Shown here piece after piece: positions 4,744 through 18,686 of a stretch of 31,350 nt of DNA. The stretch is from the IMG/VR virus record IMGVR_UViG_3300037963_001985, positions 1 to 31,350 of that record; one strand, 5' to 3'. The first letter of the stretch is position 1. Every line of letters starts with the position of its first letter. The position numbers were made by a program, and so were the translations under genes. This DNA is from a virus. The notes beneath the pieces are model-generated. The model made no database searches. It saw only the letters and a list, made by a program, of their open reading frames with translations, and was not told the origin of the DNA.

Positions 4744-6572
4744 TTTGAAGTTTTTCCTTCTTTAACTATAGATACCGTGTCTGCTAAAGGATGCTCAAAC
4801 CCATGACTAACCACTACTGAGTTAAGGTTCTGCTCTTTAACTAAAATATCTATCAAATTCTCTCTAGACTCTACGTCTAGTACAGAAATAACTTCATCTA
4901 AGAATAGTATATTAATACTTACTTTAGAGATTGAAGTCATCATCTTCCTTACCGCTAGTAAGGTAGCTGTGTTAATATTGTTGAACTCACCACTAGATGC
5001 TGAGTTTATATCGATTTCTTCACCGTGTTGGAACACTACTATACGAAGTTTAGAATCCTCAATCTGGAATCTAATGTTGAAGTCACCATTACTTAATAGA
5101 ACTAAGTATTCGTTAATTAGTGCTTCAAATACTTTGATGTTAGATTCTATCTTATACTGTACAAGACCTTTCGGCCCGAACGCACTCTCTAGTATCTTCA
5201 CATCTTCTAAATAAGCTTCGTATTCTCGTATAGACTCTTGAGTAGATTTTAGTTTCTCTTTAGCTTGAGCTACTAACTCTTTCTGCGCTTCGTATTTAGC
5301 AATTTGCTTAGCGCGCAGAGTGTTGTGCTGTTCAGCTTGTTGCTTAGCAACAGTTTGTCTATTGTATTCAGCAGTAAGTCTAGTTATTTCGTCCTCAACA
5401 GAGTCAGGTAAAGCATCCGGCTTTTCAGTATTTTCTAGTGCTTCTTGTGCGTTTTCAAAGGCTGTTTTAAGGTCTGCTTGCTTCTCTACAAGTAATTGAT
5501 GCTTGGAATATTCACTAGCTTTGCGATTACCTTCTTCATGCTCTCTTTGCTTACCTTGTTGGTACTCTACGAGCTCATTCAGCTCCTTTTTAAGGCATAG
5601 TAAATGTTCTTGTTTACTTTCGCTGTCCGGCAATTCTTGTCCACATGCGGAACATTTTCCTACTCCGGACTCTAGCTCCCTAATACTCTTTCTTAAAGAG
5701 TTAATTTGTCCTTGTACATTTTGAGCTTCTTTGTATAGATTTTTTAAGTGCTCAGTATCGGGAGCTTCAGGTTTATCTTTTGGGAGTTCAAAAACTTCCC
5801 ACGCCAGCTTAGCAGCTTCTTTTGCTTTAAAAGCCCTAGCGTATCTAATAGTTCTTTCCTGAATCTTTTCACGCTGAGACTCTATAGCTTTAAGATTCGC
5901 AATCTCGTCTCTAATAGTTTCGTCTACTACAGGTACTTCTTTTGCATTATACGTAACCTCAATAGCTCTGTTAGACTTTATTTCGGATTCTTTGGCCGCA
6001 GCGACGGCCTTATGTCCTGTTAATACGTCTTTAGCCTCTTTCACAACTTCTTTAATTCTATTGTGAATAGTAACGTATTTGTCTAAGGATAGAAGTGATA
6101 TTAAGAACTCTTTTCTCTTAGAGTCGGTAGCTTTCAAGAAGTCCAAAGAGCTGTTCATTGACTGGTACACTAACTTACTAAATGTGTTGAAATCTAGTTT
6201 TAGAATTTCCGTTTCTAACTTTTTGTAAGTCTGAGTAGGGGTGTGTCCTGATATATCTTCCCCGTTTTTAGTTAGCGTAAGTTTTGTGCTGCTCTTTACT
6301 ACTTTCTCTAGTATATATTCGTCACCGTCTACGTCAAACTCAACTGTACCTGAGTAATAGTTAGCGTCCGTGTATCGGTTTTTTATATCTGCCTTTTTAG
6401 TGCCTCTAGAGTTTTTATTATACAGAAGCTCTTCAAGTATTGTCGGTATTGAACTTTTACCTGCACCGTTCTTACCTACAAGTTGAAGCACGTTAGAGTT
6501 GTTTAGGATAATCTCATTATTCTCACCATAGGAGAACATATTGCTAAATTTTAGCTTTTTTATCGTAATCAT
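4734..6572 (-). CDS. D13: SbcC/Rad50-like ATPase subunit of recombination nuclease (T5 D13-like)
   Basis: This is the ATPase subunit that works with the Mre11/SbcD-like protein encoded just upstream to process DNA ends. Of its 612 residues, Walker A GKNGAGKS sits at 33-40. Long coiled-coil arms flank a zinc-hook CSACGQ near residue 310. Towards the C-terminus come the ABC signature SSGEFNN, Walker B ILFLDEVISVLD with the D-loop, and the switch His in VVVSHG. It is shorter than cellular SbcC (about 1000 residues) but normal for phage gp46/D13-type proteins. Start ATG 6572 overlaps the sbcD stop (ATGA). Confidence 0.96.
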   Translation of the reverse strand: MITIKKLKFSNMFSYGENNEIILNNSNVLQLVGKNGAGKSSIPTILEELLYNKNSRGTKKADIKNRYTDANYYSGTVEFDVDGDEYILEKVVKSSTKLTLTKNGEDISGHTPTQTYKKLETEILKLDFNTFSKLVYQSMNSSLDFLKATDSKRKEFLISLLSLDKYVTIHNRIKEVVKEAKDVLTGHKAVAAAKESEIKSNRAIEVTYNAKEVPVVDETIRDEIANLKAIESQREKIQERTIRYARAFKAKEAAKLAWEVFELPKDKPEAPDTEHLKNLYKEAQNVQGQINSLRKSIRELESGVGKCSACGQELPDSESKQEHLLCLKKELNELVEYQQGKQREHEEGNRKASEYSKHQLLVEKQADLKTAFENAQEALENTEKPDALPDSVEDEITRLTAEYNRQTVAKQQAEQHNTLRAKQIAKYEAQKELVAQAKEKLKSTQESIREYEAYLEDVKILESAFGPKGLVQYKIESNIKVFEALINEYLVLLSNGDFNIRFQIEDSKLRIVVFQHGEEIDINSASSGEFNNINTATLLAVRKMMTSISKVSINILFLDEVISVLDVESRENLIDILVKEQNLNSVVVSHGFEHPLADTVSIVKEGKTSKCK

Positions 6573-7516
6573 ACGTCGTCTACTCCTTGTAGTGCTTCTT
6601 TAAATATAGTAAGAAGTCTTGACATACCTTCTCCCTTAATATCCTTAACTCCTTTAAGATATGTTTGAAGCTCGTCGGATATGTCACCTGTTAGCTCTAG
6701 AGTTGGAGGAGTTACAATATCTTTTGCTACTTTCTTATCTAATAGTTCGTTATTCTTAACTTTAGATAGGTCGGCTAAGTTACCCTCAATCTCATAAAGA
6801 GTGTGGTGATACTCGCCAGGTATTGCTTCTTCAGGGTCGGTAATAGTAAGTCTTAATAGTTGTGGTAGGTTTAGCTCTTTCCACTCATGCTCTCCGGTAT
6901 TAGAATCAAATAATACAATACCATTTGCTCCCTTTGATACACTTCTATGAAAGCTAGTAGTGTATGGGCTACCTGGATATATAAGATTTAACTGGGAGTT
7001 TTTACGAGAGTGTAAATCTCCGCAGAATACTTTTTCATAGTGGGAGAACTTGGAAAGCTCTACTTCTGGTTTAACGTGTGGTGGGATTTCCCCGCGTACG
7101 TGGGTTACTGCTAGTGTAGACTTTGGAGTGCTCCAACTATCTGATAATAGTATGTTATACGGGATGTAGTCTACATTGTTTATCGTCTGGAAATCTCTAA
7201 CTAATGTTATATTAAGGTCTTTAAATATTTGGTCGCAAACTTCAAAGCAATCCTTTTTCTTAGTAAGCATTTCATGGTTTCCAGGTATTAAAATTATTTC
7301 TTCGTGCTCTAGCGCTCTAAGGAAGTCATACATCAAACACACTTCTGGCATAGTAGGCTTAGCTACATCAAGCAAGTCTCCACCAATTACCAATGTTTTA
7401 TCTTTGTATTCATTTAACTCTTTTGCTAGTAGCATTACTCGATTGCGCTGCCATTCACTAGGTACATTCTTTTGTCCTAACTTTATGTGAATGTCTGCTA
7501 CGAAAATATGATCCAT
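6569..7516 (-). CDS. D12: SbcD/Mre11-like nuclease subunit (T5 D12-like)
   Basis: This calcineurin-like metallophosphoesterase is the nuclease partner of the SbcC-like ATPase. The phosphoesterase motifs appear in order: VADIHI (D-x-H), IGGDLLD (GDxxD), IPGNHEM (GNHE), VTHVRG (H) and CGDLHSR (GDxH). The frame is open further upstream to a GTG at 7549, but that start falls inside the SSB terminator hairpin. ATG 7516, behind AAGGAATTAC, gives a 315-residue protein that begins directly with the first motif and is preferred. The ATGA overlap with sbcC keeps the two subunits at matched levels. It resembles T5 D12. Confidence 0.95.
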   Translation of the reverse strand: MDHIFVADIHIKLGQKNVPSEWQRNRVMLLAKELNEYKDKTLVIGGDLLDVAKPTMPEVCLMYDFLRALEHEEIILIPGNHEMLTKKKDCFEVCDQIFKDLNITLVRDFQTINNVDYIPYNILLSDSWSTPKSTLAVTHVRGEIPPHVKPEVELSKFSHYEKVFCGDLHSRKNSQLNLIYPGSPYTTSFHRSVSKGANGIVLFDSNTGEHEWKELNLPQLLRLTITDPEEAIPGEYHHTLYEIEGNLADLSKVKNNELLDKKVAKDIVTPPTLELTGDISDELQTYLKGVKDIKGEGMSRLLTIFKEALQGVDDV

Positions 7517-9942: not shown

Positions 9943-10232
9943 CATTTATGTTACGCGTCAGACCGTTACCTGACGCTCTTTATCTTTCGATAAAGATCGG
10001 ACTATATCTTTAATATCTTAATGATATTACTCTCCATTTCGACTTCCGTTGAAGCCTACTCCCATATAGGGATAGTCTCTGAACTTTACCCATTTTAGGG
10101 TCTTAGCTGCTGATTATCCAATCTTTTTATTTTCAAACATTCGCGCTTACCGTTTCCAGTTACGCTGTAGTTAAAAAGCTCTAAGGACGTTCCAGCAATT
10201 AGAAGAGTTTATACCGAGCTAAGGTTACACTA
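9943..10232 (-). ncRNA. Group I intron (IA-like) in helicase D10
   Basis: This self-splicing intron of 290 nt lies in phase 0 between GGT and TGG codons. The upstream exon ends in U and the intron ends in G. P1 is a 7-bp pairing of exon ACCGGGT with intron GCTCGGT (10219-10213), with a U-G pair at the splice site. The conserved core is plain: P4 GCTG/CAGC; P6 ACCC/GGGT; R element GTTCAGAGACTAT (10084-10072) and S element AAGATATAGTCC, whose GACTAT/ATAGTC form P7. A CCC-TATAT-GGG hairpin follows P7 5', as in subgroup IA. P8 is GGCTTC/GAAGTC. A P9 hairpin TCTTTATC-GAAA-GATAAAGA (9996-9977) is followed by a further GCGTCAG/CTGACGC stem. There is no ORF, so it lacks its own homing endonuclease. 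Confidence 0.95.
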
Positions 10233-11080: not shown

Positions 11081-11381
11081 CAAACACCTCTTTTACTCTC
11101 AACTCTACATGAACGTAACCAGAATTAGCTAATGTTAACGAAGGTACTAAGAACTTTAGCAACTCTTCTGATATAGTCAAGTCACAAGCTAGATATAAAG
11201 TACCATCTGTCACATTAGGTAGTAATACAGTACCTACTTTGTTGTTGTCCAAGTATATAGGGATCTCAGACTGTGGGGAAGTAGGGCCGGTTCTATGCAG
11301 AACCAGCTTGTATAGATAGGTTACAAAGCTACTATCATCAGAGCTTCCCTCAGCTCCAAAAACTTTAAGTAATTTTCTCAT
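11043..11381 (-). CDS. Hypothetical protein downstream of DNA polymerase
   Basis: This 112-residue protein has a mostly beta-strand-like pattern. It begins at ATG 11381, sharing one base with the polymerase stop (TAATG), which implies re-initiation by the same ribosomes. No known family, signal peptide or metal motif was seen. The tight coupling to the polymerase suggests a replication accessory, but nothing in the residues proves it. Confidence 0.75.
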   Translation of the reverse strand: MRKLLKVFGAEGSSDDSSFVTYLYKLVLHRTGPTSPQSEIPIYLDNNKVGTVLLPNVTDGTLYLACDLTISEELLKFLVPSLTLANSGYVHVELRVKEVFDVSGVPIPDLRN

Positions 11382-13735
11382 TATGCTACCTTAGCTAAGT
11401 CTGGATACTTAGCTTCTAATTTACCACAAGAATAGTCTCTAGAACCACCTGGCTCTGAGTCCGCCTCTAGACCAACAGGACAATCAGGGATTGAACATCC
11501 ACGGTCTTTTTGTACATTTCTAGTTACTAGCTCGATGTACTCTTCTACTTTGTCTTCTCTAACAATTGCCACGATGGAGTCATGTACTAGAGCGAAGATT
11601 TCAGCAGGGAATCCTTTTTCTATGATTTCCTTATCAGCATCAATCGCACCTAGTAGCAATGAATCACTAGAGATAGACTGGATGATTGCGTTAAATCCTG
11701 AACGAACTTCACCAGAAGCAATACCTCTGTCTTTAGAGTTAATATTGCGTAGTCTGCGCTTTCTACCAAAGTGGTTATAGATGAAACCATGCTCTTTGAT
11801 TTGGTTATGACATTCATCAATCCAACGTTTAAGCTGCTTGAATCTGCGGAAGTAGTCTTGGATATATCCTTTAGCATCTTCTACAGTACAAGTTGCAGGT
11901 TGGTCATTCTCTAGGAACGCTAGGTTAACCGCTTCTGCTACCTTAGCTGGGCCTGACCCGTATAAAATGCCGAAGCTAATGGCTTTTGCTGCCTGTCTTA
12001 GCGCAGGATATAACTCTTTTACATCTTTAGGTTCGCATGGTAAGTTAAACACCATATGTGCTATGTTGCTATGAAAATCAGGGTATTTATCAGGGTCTTT
12101 CTTCATGTTGATAAATACTTGCTGCATTGCCTTATCTTCCGATAAGACAGCCGCAAAATAAATTTCTGCGGTGGTTAAGTCCAAGGCTACTATTTTATAA
12201 CCTTCAGGAGGAACTACACAACCTTTGATAATAGGATTATCTCTTGGGAGCTGCTGCATGTTAAATCGACCTGATGAGGACAATCGACCCGAAGTGGTCG
12301 TGGTTTGGTGAAACCCTGTTCGTACTCTACTATCTGAATTAATACACGGTATTAGCTTAGATATGTAGGTTGATTTAAGTTTTAAATGCGTTCTGATATT
12401 CTTAATAAGCTTTGGTACTTTATGCTGAGCAGCTAGAGTGTCTAGCACCTCTTTGTCTACTGAGATTGCACCTGTGCCTGTCAATTTACCTGTCGGTTTT
12501 AAGCCTACTTTATCAAACAGTAGCTTTCTAATTTGCTGAACAGAGTTAGGATTAAACACTGCTCCTTGCTCTTGCTCTAGCTCTATTACTTCTTCTACTT
12601 CCCATAGCTGCTTACGGTAAGCTGATAGCTGACTGTCTAGGTAGTTATTAGCTTCTAGAAGTCTGTTAGCAGATACCGGAACTCCACGGTCTTCCATTCT
12701 AGTTAAGAAGTGAAGTGCTGGTAGTTGTAGCTCTTCGTAACAGTATTTTAATTTGTTGTTCTTAATAAGAATAGGGTAGAACTTACGGAACAGTTGGAAT
12801 GTAGCATCTGTATCTTTTGCTGCATACACCTTGATTATGTCCCAAGGTATTAGGTCATACGAGAATGTGTCTGGGTCAATAGAATACTGTTTTATGTAAT
12901 CTTTCTTCCACTCGTCAAGTTCATCATCGTATGCCCCTAAGTCTGTGTATTTAAGTGCCAAAGATTTCAGTCCGTGAGTACCTTGTCGCTCGTCTAACAG
13001 ATAGTGAAGAATCATTGTATCGTGTACGTGACCTTCTCTGTGGTCAAACCTTACGCCTAAATGGTAAAGAAACCACTTCATATCGAACTTAGCATTGTGG
13101 AATACTACGTCCTTAGTATCGATAATTTTTTGTAGAATATCAACACATTCTTGGTCTAGTCCATCCGAGTCTAGGTAAGCTCCTTGGTGAAGCTCGTATG
13201 TTACAGAGATACCGAGCATGTACCCTTCTCTAGGTTCTAATGCACTGGTTTCGGAGTCGAGCGCTACTACGTCAGTTCCGTGGGCTTCAGCTCTTCTAAG
13301 AAACTTCTTAATATCTTCAGTCTCTCTGTAGAACTCGTAGTTTTTATTTGCCATGTCTTCTTCAACGCCACCAAATATATTATGGATAGCTTTTACAGTT
13401 AAGTCAAACACAGGCTTGTTTTCTGGTTTAAATGCTAACATCGCTGGTGATATACTAGCAATGAAATTAGGATAACCGCATTTACCTTCAACTTGTTTTC
13501 CGGTATAATCGGTTACTGATGTTTGTTTTGTATAGTTTTTTAGAGCTTCAGAACCTACGAGGATTACGTAGTCGAATTTAGTTGGGTCGAAGTCTGTAAG
13601 GTCTATATCTCGTTTAAGTAGCCGAGAAACCTTAGTACTTGATAGGTTGTAGACTTCTACCTCGTGATTCTGTAACATGAACAGTTTCTGGTATTCAGTC
13701 TTGGATGGGCATTTTTGGATGATTGCTATTTTCAT
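11381..13735 (-). CDS. Family A DNA polymerase with 3'-5' exonuclease (T5 polymerase-like)
   Basis: This is the replicative polymerase of the phage. The 784-residue protein starts at ATG 13735 behind AAGGAATTAT; an in-frame GTG seven codons upstream lacks a better site. Proofreading motifs are Exo I VVALDSETSAL (near residue 160), Exo II VFHNAKFDMKW and Exo III YAAKDTDATF. Polymerase motifs are A, DLTTAEIYFAAVL; B, RQAAKAISFGILYG, with Arg, Lys and Tyr of the O helix; and C, FALVHDSIVAI, near residue 718. There is no 5' nuclease domain, which is supplied by the separate D15-type protein. It is somewhat shorter than T5 polymerase (about 855 residues). The primase gene ends 33 nt upstream, and the next gene overlaps its stop by one base. 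Confidence 0.97.
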   Translation of the reverse strand: MKIAIIQKCPSKTEYQKLFMLQNHEVEVYNLSSTKVSRLLKRDIDLTDFDPTKFDYVILVGSEALKNYTKQTSVTDYTGKQVEGKCGYPNFIASISPAMLAFKPENKPVFDLTVKAIHNIFGGVEEDMANKNYEFYRETEDIKKFLRRAEAHGTDVVALDSETSALEPREGYMLGISVTYELHQGAYLDSDGLDQECVDILQKIIDTKDVVFHNAKFDMKWFLYHLGVRFDHREGHVHDTMILHYLLDERQGTHGLKSLALKYTDLGAYDDELDEWKKDYIKQYSIDPDTFSYDLIPWDIIKVYAAKDTDATFQLFRKFYPILIKNNKLKYCYEELQLPALHFLTRMEDRGVPVSANRLLEANNYLDSQLSAYRKQLWEVEEVIELEQEQGAVFNPNSVQQIRKLLFDKVGLKPTGKLTGTGAISVDKEVLDTLAAQHKVPKLIKNIRTHLKLKSTYISKLIPCINSDSRVRTGFHQTTTTSGRLSSSGRFNMQQLPRDNPIIKGCVVPPEGYKIVALDLTTAEIYFAAVLSEDKAMQQVFINMKKDPDKYPDFHSNIAHMVFNLPCEPKDVKELYPALRQAAKAISFGILYGSGPAKVAEAVNLAFLENDQPATCTVEDAKGYIQDYFRRFKQLKRWIDECHNQIKEHGFIYNHFGRKRRLRNINSKDRGIASGEVRSGFNAIIQSISSDSLLLGAIDADKEIIEKGFPAEIFALVHDSIVAIVREDKVEEYIELVTRNVQKDRGCSIPDCPVGLEADSEPGGSRDYSCGKLEAKYPDLAKVA

Positions 13736-13768
13736 ATAATTCCTTAGTTTATACACTGAGTTAGTGTG

Positions 13769-16812: not shown

Positions 16813-17577
16813 TTAATAATTATCCTCTAATTCTTTGATTGTCACAATAGGTAGTCCAAGTTTCTCTGCTTTTTTGTAAGAGCTTGAACCTGTCTTTGAA
16901 TCATCTTCGCAGACTAAGTATTGTGTTGTTTTGGTTACTGATGATTTTACTTCCCAACCGAGTGACGCTAAATGTGTTGCTGCGGCATTTCGATTAGGAA
17001 AGTCGTTTAGTTTGCCTGTAATACACACTACACCTTTTTGCTGTATAGTATTACTGACTGGTTTTTCTGTTACTAAATACTGATTCCATTCGGTTTGTAA
17101 TTCTGGAATCCAGTCTGTTTCGATCCAAGCCATTAAGTTGTTTGCAGCTTTATCGCCACCACCTACTTCGCGTATAGCTTCATACGTCAGGTCGTCTATT
17201 TTAATTGAGCCTAGCTTCTTGGCTAGTGAAGTACCTACTAAAGGTATTGACATTCCTGAGATAAAATCTGATACGTAGATTTTTTTATTAAGTCGGTCTT
17301 GAATCTGAGCTACTAAGTTGCTTGAGGTTTTATCCCCTATCCCTTTTGTTTTACAAAACTCTTCCGTAAGAGTTAATAGCTCGTTAATATGAGAAATCTC
17401 TAGTTTATTAACAGTGACCTCTCCGAATCCCTTGATTTTTAAAATCTTACAAAAGTGCTGTACGCGCTTAGTAGATTGTGCAGGACATGATTTAGAGTTT
17501 CGACAGAACAATTGACTGTTTACTGTCTCTAGCTCACTTCCGCAGGAGGGACATTCTGTTGGTACTAAAATTTCCAT
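16813..17577 (-). CDS. ligB: NAD+-dependent DNA ligase, C-terminal subunit (LigB)
   Basis: This 254-residue protein carries the C-terminal half of a bacterial-type NAD+ ligase: a four-cysteine zinc finger (C9, C12, C25, C31), then helix-hairpin-helix DNA-binding segments (KIKGFGEVTVNKL, KGIGDKTSSNLV, VGTSLAKKL), and a C-terminal BRCT domain from about residue 180 (VCITGKLNDF...GWEVKSSV). It lacks the adenylation domain, which is encoded separately by ligA. T5 also splits its ligase into LigA and LigB, so this is ancestral to the group and not a recent break. It has its own promoter and a stem-loop leader (17599-17684). Confidence 0.93.
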   Translation of the reverse strand: MEILVPTECPSCGSELETVNSQLFCRNSKSCPAQSTKRVQHFCKILKIKGFGEVTVNKLEISHINELLTLTEEFCKTKGIGDKTSSNLVAQIQDRLNKKIYVSDFISGMSIPLVGTSLAKKLGSIKIDDLTYEAIREVGGGDKAANNLMAWIETDWIPELQTEWNQYLVTEKPVSNTIQQKGVVCITGKLNDFPNRNAAATHLASLGWEVKSSVTKTTQYLVCEDDSKTGSSSYKKAEKLGLPIVTIKELEDNY

Positions 17578-17714: not shown

Positions 17715-18686
17715 CTAATCAATACGGGAAACTACACAAGGTATAATCTCACCGCTGCGAACAATGCCTACCTTGCATCCTATTTCTAAGTCTAGCGCCT
17801 TTATAAATTCTATATTGTTAAGAGTAGCGCGAGATACTTTCGCATCCCCTACCATAACAGGTTCTAGAATCGCCACTGGAGAAACCTTGCCGCTTTTTCC
17901 AGTCTGCCAAACTACGTCTAAAAGAGTAGTCTCCACAGCCTCAGCATTCTCCTTGAAAGCAAAAGCTCCTTTTGGAAACTTAGAGGTAAAGCCATGCGCT
18001 TTGAATTGAGCGTTACTAGATAGTCTGTACACAATTCCGTCTGTTAGAAAGCTTGCTGTTCCATAAGCAGAGGCTAAACCATCTTCTATCTGTAGTTCAG
18101 TTACAGGCAAAAATCCGTTTCGGTATAATAACTTCATGTCATCCGGATATGAGGTAGTAATACCAATAGAAGATTCCGAGGTTTGTACAGAGTAGGCAAC
18201 AAATTCAATAGATCCTTCTACAACCTTGCTAGAGTACTCGTCGAAGTCTTTAAGGTTTAAAGCTCCAGATACGTAATTCCGTGCATTAGGCATAGTGTGG
18301 CTACAAACTACTTCTCCAGTAATTTGTACTAAATCCTTGTCGGTTTCGATCTTATGTGGAACAAGCTGTCGGATTTTATCTGTTATATCGCGCCCTTTAA
18401 ATCCATCGCCTCTAGTAAGAGACAATGTATAATTTCCTTGGACGTATAATATTGAGATAGCAGCTCCGTCTAGCTTGGGAGTCTCGGTACATCTTTCGAT
18501 GCTTAGTGGGGCATCCTGCATGTCGTAGCACTTTTGAAGTGAGTACATTCTAAATGCGTGAGGTGTGTCTCCGTTACCAGAGATAGTTTGGCCGTACATA
18601 CGTTCTAATGTGTCGTATTGCTCATTAGTAAGGATTGGGTTTCCATCGTAGTAGGCTTCAGAAGCAGTTTTAAGTAGTTCTTTCAT
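17715..18686 (-). CDS. ligA: NAD+-dependent DNA ligase, N-terminal adenylation subunit (LigA)
   Basis: This 323-residue protein holds the N-terminal half of an NAD+ ligase. A short domain Ia for NAD+ (SEAYYDGNPILTNEQYD, residues 8-25) comes first. The nucleotidyltransferase core has adenylated lysine K71 in PKLDGAA and TRGDGFKGRDIT. The end is an OB-fold-like region with VWQTGKSGKVSPVA and IVRSGEIIP. The zinc, HhH and BRCT parts are in ligB downstream, so sealing nicks should need both subunits. Its start overlaps the PC4-like gene by 17 nt, and 137 nt separate it from ligB, an unusually large gap for this cluster. Confidence 0.94.
   Translation of the reverse strand: MKELLKTASEAYYDGNPILTNEQYDTLERMYGQTISGNGDTPHAFRMYSLQKCYDMQDAPLSIERCTETPKLDGAAISILYVQGNYTLSLTRGDGFKGRDITDKIRQLVPHKIETDKDLVQITGEVVCSHTMPNARNYVSGALNLKDFDEYSSKVVEGSIEFVAYSVQTSESSIGITTSYPDDMKLLYRNGFLPVTELQIEDGLASAYGTASFLTDGIVYRLSSNAQFKAHGFTSKFPKGAFAFKENAEAVETTLLDVVWQTGKSGKVSPVAILEPVMVGDAKVSRATLNNIEFIKALDLEIGCKVGIVRSGEIIPCVVSRID

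Follow-up and report, generated by a model that had tools for sequence, protein, structure and literature searches.

The window analysed here, a 31,350-nt stretch of viral DNA, carries on its minus strand a D10-type helicase gene in two exons. Exon 1 (10574-10233) encodes 114 aa and ends in INCKPG (codons AAC TGT AAA CCG GGT), and exon 2 (9942-8926) resumes with WGKS (TGG GGT AAG TCC) and holds the Walker B motif DECHH as well as motif VI. Joined, they can be read through for 452 aa and restore the Walker A sequence CKPGWGKS, in agreement with the first-pass annotation, which had placed the break between CKPG and WGKS. The spliced protein matches the Pfam families ResIII (4e-20), Helicase_C (6.8e-7) and DEAD, along with PHROG 16 (helicase, 3.7e-54), and can be aligned over its length, motif I and motif VI included, with homologues that have no intron, among them that of Vibrio phage JSF10. 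T5 D10 is an SF2 branch-migration helicase whose motif I is Walker A (PMC5180179); judged by its sequence, the host gene is a D10/UvsW-type SF2 helicase of a T5-like phage, interrupted inside Walker A.

Between the two exons, base-exact, lies a group I intron of 290 nt (10232-9943, minus strand), ending in G9943. An Rfam search of the window returned the group I model RF00028 at 10262-9978 (minus strand) with 91.1 bits and an E-value of 2.5e-22, against a curated cut-off of 50 bits, and no other Rfam family exceeded its threshold. This search had been suggested along with the original reading of 9943-10232 as a compact, ORF-less group I intron, a reading now backed by the Rfam match, by P1 and P10 pairing, by covariation and by exact empty alleles in two related contigs (L004 and L005). 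All three reading frames of the intron are closed, UAG being the first in-frame codon. The possibility that the 290 nt are read-through coding sequence is ruled out by these closed frames and by the exact absence of the segment from the two near-identical alleles.

A structure built by hand comprises 74 pairs with no mismatch in the window, and the elements that had been read from the letters alone (P1 with a U-G splice site, a perfect P7, an IA-type P7.1 hairpin, a GAAA-capped P9 and a terminal G) were all recovered in it. P1 (10213-10239) pairs the exon end ACCGGGU (10239-10233) with the guide GCUCGGU (10219-10213) over 7 bp, mismatch-free, with the U.G at the 5′ splice site, while the P10 guide ACCUUA (10220-10225) pairs over 6 bp with UGGGGU of exon 2 (9942-9937); the two pairings fix both splice sites. 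The 5′ strand of P3 (10202-10208) meets its 3′ strand at 10035-10029, and P4 is likewise mismatch-free in a letter-by-letter check. P6 (10088-10101) is a minimal hairpin. P7, which we take to be the G-binding helix, pairs GACUAU (10072-10077) with AUAGUC (10005-10000). Sited between P7 and P3, within 10041-10071, are P7.1 (10071-10061, CCC/GGG) and, in addition to the elements already named, P7.2 (10056-10041, GGCUUC/GAAGUC); both co-vary, and because both are present the intron is, on its predicted fold, of subgroup IA, presumably IA2. Further hairpins are P8 (10012-10028, 6-7 bp), P9 (9978-9995, 7 bp, GAAA loop) and P9.1 (9955-9976, GCGUCAG/CUGACGC).

Covariation was scored over seven introns, namely those at the D10 site of the window, of two metagenomic contigs (L007 and L012) and of Salmonella phages Kenya-K44 (K44) and phA11, plus two polA introns, with endonuclease ORFs excised. 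Standard pairs fill 93.6% of cells, compared with 78.1% in shuffled controls and 37-46% in slid controls, where pairing partners were shifted by 1-3 columns. Changes on both sides occur at 40 of the 74 pairs (7-12 in the slid controls). P1 and P10, which are absent from the Rfam model, share in this covariation together with the exons: P10 follows exon 2 in K44 (UUUGGU with ACCAAU, one mismatch), in L133 (UUCGGU with ACCGAA) and also in L134, both of them contigs with a D10 intron. Even L007, whose core is 97% identical to that of the window, differs in P8 by two compensated pair changes. Such conservation bears on the very improbable alternative that efficient splicing has been lost and the intron is decaying into a pseudo-intron, with D10 split into two polypeptides as a gene in pieces. 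The two helicase CDSs annotated in K44 and phA11, and an ATG at the junction that opens the exon 2 ORF, could be read that way; however, all helices are intact, P8 pairing is kept by compensatory change, the junction ATG lacks a preceding ribosome-binding site, and the break falls inside Walker A, so that each fragment would lack part of the ATP site.

In the self-splicing reading, guanosine bound at P7 would attack after U10233, freeing exon 1, whose end, held in P1, would then attack after G9943 while P10 aligns exon 2. The predicted exon junction is ...CCGGGTTGGGGT..., and the ligated product would read ...KPGWGKS.... Unspliced RNA would stop at the UAG and yield only a 114-aa N-terminal fragment. 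A stop codon just within the 5′ splice site is a known habit of group I introns (PMC3073962), which the intron-initial UAG fits.

A 290-nt intron at this position is found in L006, which matches the window at 100% identity, and in L007-L010. An uninterrupted helicase gene is present in the 108-kb contig L004 and in L005, and removing exactly 10232-9943 reproduces these alleles. At the end of exon 1, intron-free L004 has CCTGGG where the carriers have CCGGGT, and it therefore lacks the U needed for the U.G pair at the splice site. Exon differences show no clear gradient that would mark a co-conversion tract around the insertion site. Intron presence and absence among identical exons is compatible with transfer into intron-free alleles. 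Once the intron is taken out of L007, the first 2,105 nt of L005, a 3.3-kb contig, are identical to it, the whole gene included, and the two differ only downstream. Such a match, precisely minus 290 nt, raises the possibility that L005 comes from a metatranscriptome assembly, which would make it a spliced transcript and a direct sign of splicing in vivo, and some IMG sample numbers near that of L005 (3300011278) are, we believe, metatranscriptomes. Against this, L005 departs from L007 further downstream, and there is a genuine intron-free genome, L004; a transcript origin is conceivable but somewhat less probable than a genomic one. The question concerns only where the intron-free contig came from, and either answer is compatible with a self-splicing intron.

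Introns at the same site in other phages carry an ORF. The L012 intron lies between the same codons as that of the window and has a 227-aa ORF in P8. A search with this ORF led to the Salmonella Tequintaviruses Kenya-K44 (OQ291036), phA11 (OQ680478) and phC11 (OQ680480), where the D10 junction GKPG|FGKT falls on the same codon boundary as CKPG|WGKS. Their introns resemble that of the window in gene, site and P1 guide, with a core 75% identical, and differ from it in having, within P8, an endonuclease ORF of 238 aa and, in L6, a promoter-like sequence. When viral contigs were searched by profile, D10-site introns with the same junction and an ORF in P8 came up again (L132/L133 and L134-L136), and the strongest endonuclease matches therefore concentrate at this single site. 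D10-site introns with a P8 ORF are thus found in Salmonella Tequintaviruses and in three metagenomic lineages; more distant matches to the endonuclease lie in introns that interrupt polA in L007/L009 and JSF10. In phA11 (L126:2965-3681) the endonuclease has an in-frame stop that is absent in K44, a decaying HEG in an intron that is maintained.

The annotations of K44 and phA11 present D10 as two 'DNA helicase' CDSs flanking a 'hypothetical protein'. The last three intron bases do form an ATG, as already pointed out in the first-pass annotation, and the two-gene annotation predicted from it is what K44 displays. In L006-L010, L012 and L134 the intron ends with ATG or TTG, in frame with exon 2, where automatic gene calling can open a spurious second gene, a warning that in intron-bearing phages D10 ends up annotated as two broken genes. 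A full-text search, with most of the subscription literature outside it, turned up no earlier account that places a group I intron in D10 or in any Walker A motif. The kind of intron is known, then, and its mechanism is ordinary group I; the site is unusual and the D10-site family is apparently new.

The P8 proteins of the D10 site match no family above cut-off in Pfam, PHROGs or NCBIfam. Common to them are CxxC pairs and, at the C terminus, the motif W..D(F)...E.(T/S). An AF2 model reached a mean pLDDT of 81 (an earlier one from 3 sequences, pLDDT 38, was discarded) and gave 89 matches with E < 0.001 in a library of viral models, several of them annotated as homing or Vsr endonucleases. In the PDB, the same model was matched to the catalytic domain of I-Bth0305I with a probability of 0.97 but an E-value of 0.12, and a profile search against PDB sequences found no match. 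The predicted fold may be similar to that of the I-Bth0305I/Vsr-like (EDxHD) homing endonucleases, beside which the protein is set by fold, below every curated family cut-off. With moderate confidence we regard it as a predicted Zn-finger/Vsr-like homing endonuclease.

The window intron has no such ORF, and its P8 loop, the position of the endonuclease ORF in the relatives, is only 5 nt long. L6 differs as well: HEG-bearing relatives have an extended P6 loop with a sigma70-like promoter in it. Sigma70-like sites were seen in L6 of K44, L133, L134, the second polA intron of L009 and the JSF10 polA intron; compared with 200 shuffles, two of them beat all, and those of K44, L134 and JSF10 are marginal (8-13/200). 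L012 has the endonuclease ORF and no convincing promoter. A tree of the intron cores places L012 as the sister of the window clade (support 98), and the next node outward, towards L134, has 92.

Because the window clade nests inside HEG-bearing introns, and because its homologues at exactly this position of D10 have a P8 endonuclease, the ORF-less state is best read as loss; most likely, the sequences suggest, this lineage lost the endonuclease and, together with it, the promoter-like L6 module. The D10-site introns are not monophyletic in this tree and its deep nodes are weak (the JSF10 polA intron joins L133 at 74), so gain of the HEG remains as an alternative. The window intron would then be primitively ORF-less, the endonuclease having entered P8 of related introns later and separately. 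According to a review (PMC3073962), group I introns probably had no ORF originally and were invaded on many occasions, and the window P8 is a clean hairpin in which no coding remnants are found beyond what the RNA core needs. Yet homologous ORFs occupy the same loop at the same site in four divergent D10 lineages, the window clade is nested among them with support of 98 and 92, and L6 is reduced too, as expected if an expression module was removed; we consider a primitive state unlikely.

Taken together, we put at about 95% the probability that the window holds a self-splicing intron in the D10 Walker A codons, most likely derived from a HEG-bearing mobile intron of the same site by loss of the HEG and the L6 site. 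Splicing, loss as the direction of change, and homing are what we infer from sequence comparison. The ancestor would have been a mobile intron specific for the D10 site whose P8 encoded a homing endonuclease of the Zn-finger/Vsr-like kind and whose L6 held a promoter-like site.

The absence of an endonuclease, as claimed by the first-pass annotation, holds inside the intron and across the window, and fails for the whole record, in which the thymidylate synthase gene, outside the window, has a td group I intron that encodes a GIY-YIG endonuclease resembling I-TevI (G000:32578-33590, corresponding to L084:8591-9635). Apart from that gene, the 108-kb carrier genome contains no GIY-YIG, HNH, LAGLIDADG or D10-type HEG. 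A free-standing D10-type endonuclease was also considered, and none was found there. Mobility of the window intron would now need an outside enzyme and, as the carrier genome lacks a D10-type endonuclease, a co-infecting HEG-bearing phage is a plausible donor. The lineage may persist via inheritance, recombination or possibly homing with such an enzyme. One may speculate further that T5-like phages have, in the D10 Walker A codons, a permanent homing site for an intron and Vsr-like endonuclease pair, that the ORF-less form still spreads with the relatives' enzyme during co-infection, and that L005 is a natural spliced transcript, though this fuller scenario is doubtful.

Other observations were made in the window and its relatives. 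The G002 and G004 relatives have an ORF-less form of the same td intron (a 228-nt model match). Near-identical phages carry polA group I introns at three different sites (L004:1342-1600, L008:1074-1360 and L009:314-1496), and polA of the window (11381-13756) has none. The window also encodes a two-gene NAD-dependent DNA ligase (16813-17577, PHROG 3498, and 17715-18686, PHROG 3359). In L009 an SbcD-like gene (6041-6917) is apparently split into two overlapping frames by the loss of about 70 nt that L004 has.

The single D10 site is seen in several states, with the HEG intact (K44, L012, L133, L134), broken (phA11) or gone (the window), plus intron-free genomes, and thereby offers a natural series for the homing cycle. 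Since deposited Salmonella phages hold HEG-bearing forms, this series is directly testable.

The group I introns of T4 td, nrdB and sunY and of phage Twort belong to subgroup IA2. The window intron has in common with them the P1-P9 core, P7.1/P7.2, the U.G 5′ splice site, the terminal G and a host gene in nucleotide or DNA metabolism; unlike them, it sits in the Walker A loop of a D10/UvsW-type helicase, without an ORF. The lysin intron of Streptococcus thermophilus phages reportedly occurs as ORF-less deletion derivatives (work attributed to Foley, 2000, cited in PMC8541194). These too derive from an ORF-bearing intron at one site, whereas the gene differs and the window deletion spans both the P8 ORF and the L6 module. 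Phage group I introns are well documented in polymerase, nrd, td and terminase genes (PMC11878797), and the helicase P-loop joins these known sites. Inteins such as haloarchaeal MCM-a and VMA-b sit in Walker A (PMC10643990); they are likewise selfish elements that occupy a helicase or ATPase at its ATP-binding loop, a site that is hard to mutate. These inteins are removed by protein splicing, and MCM-a follows the Walker A lysine whereas the window intron precedes it. The parallel supports the view that such elements settle at targets which the host is not free to mutate.
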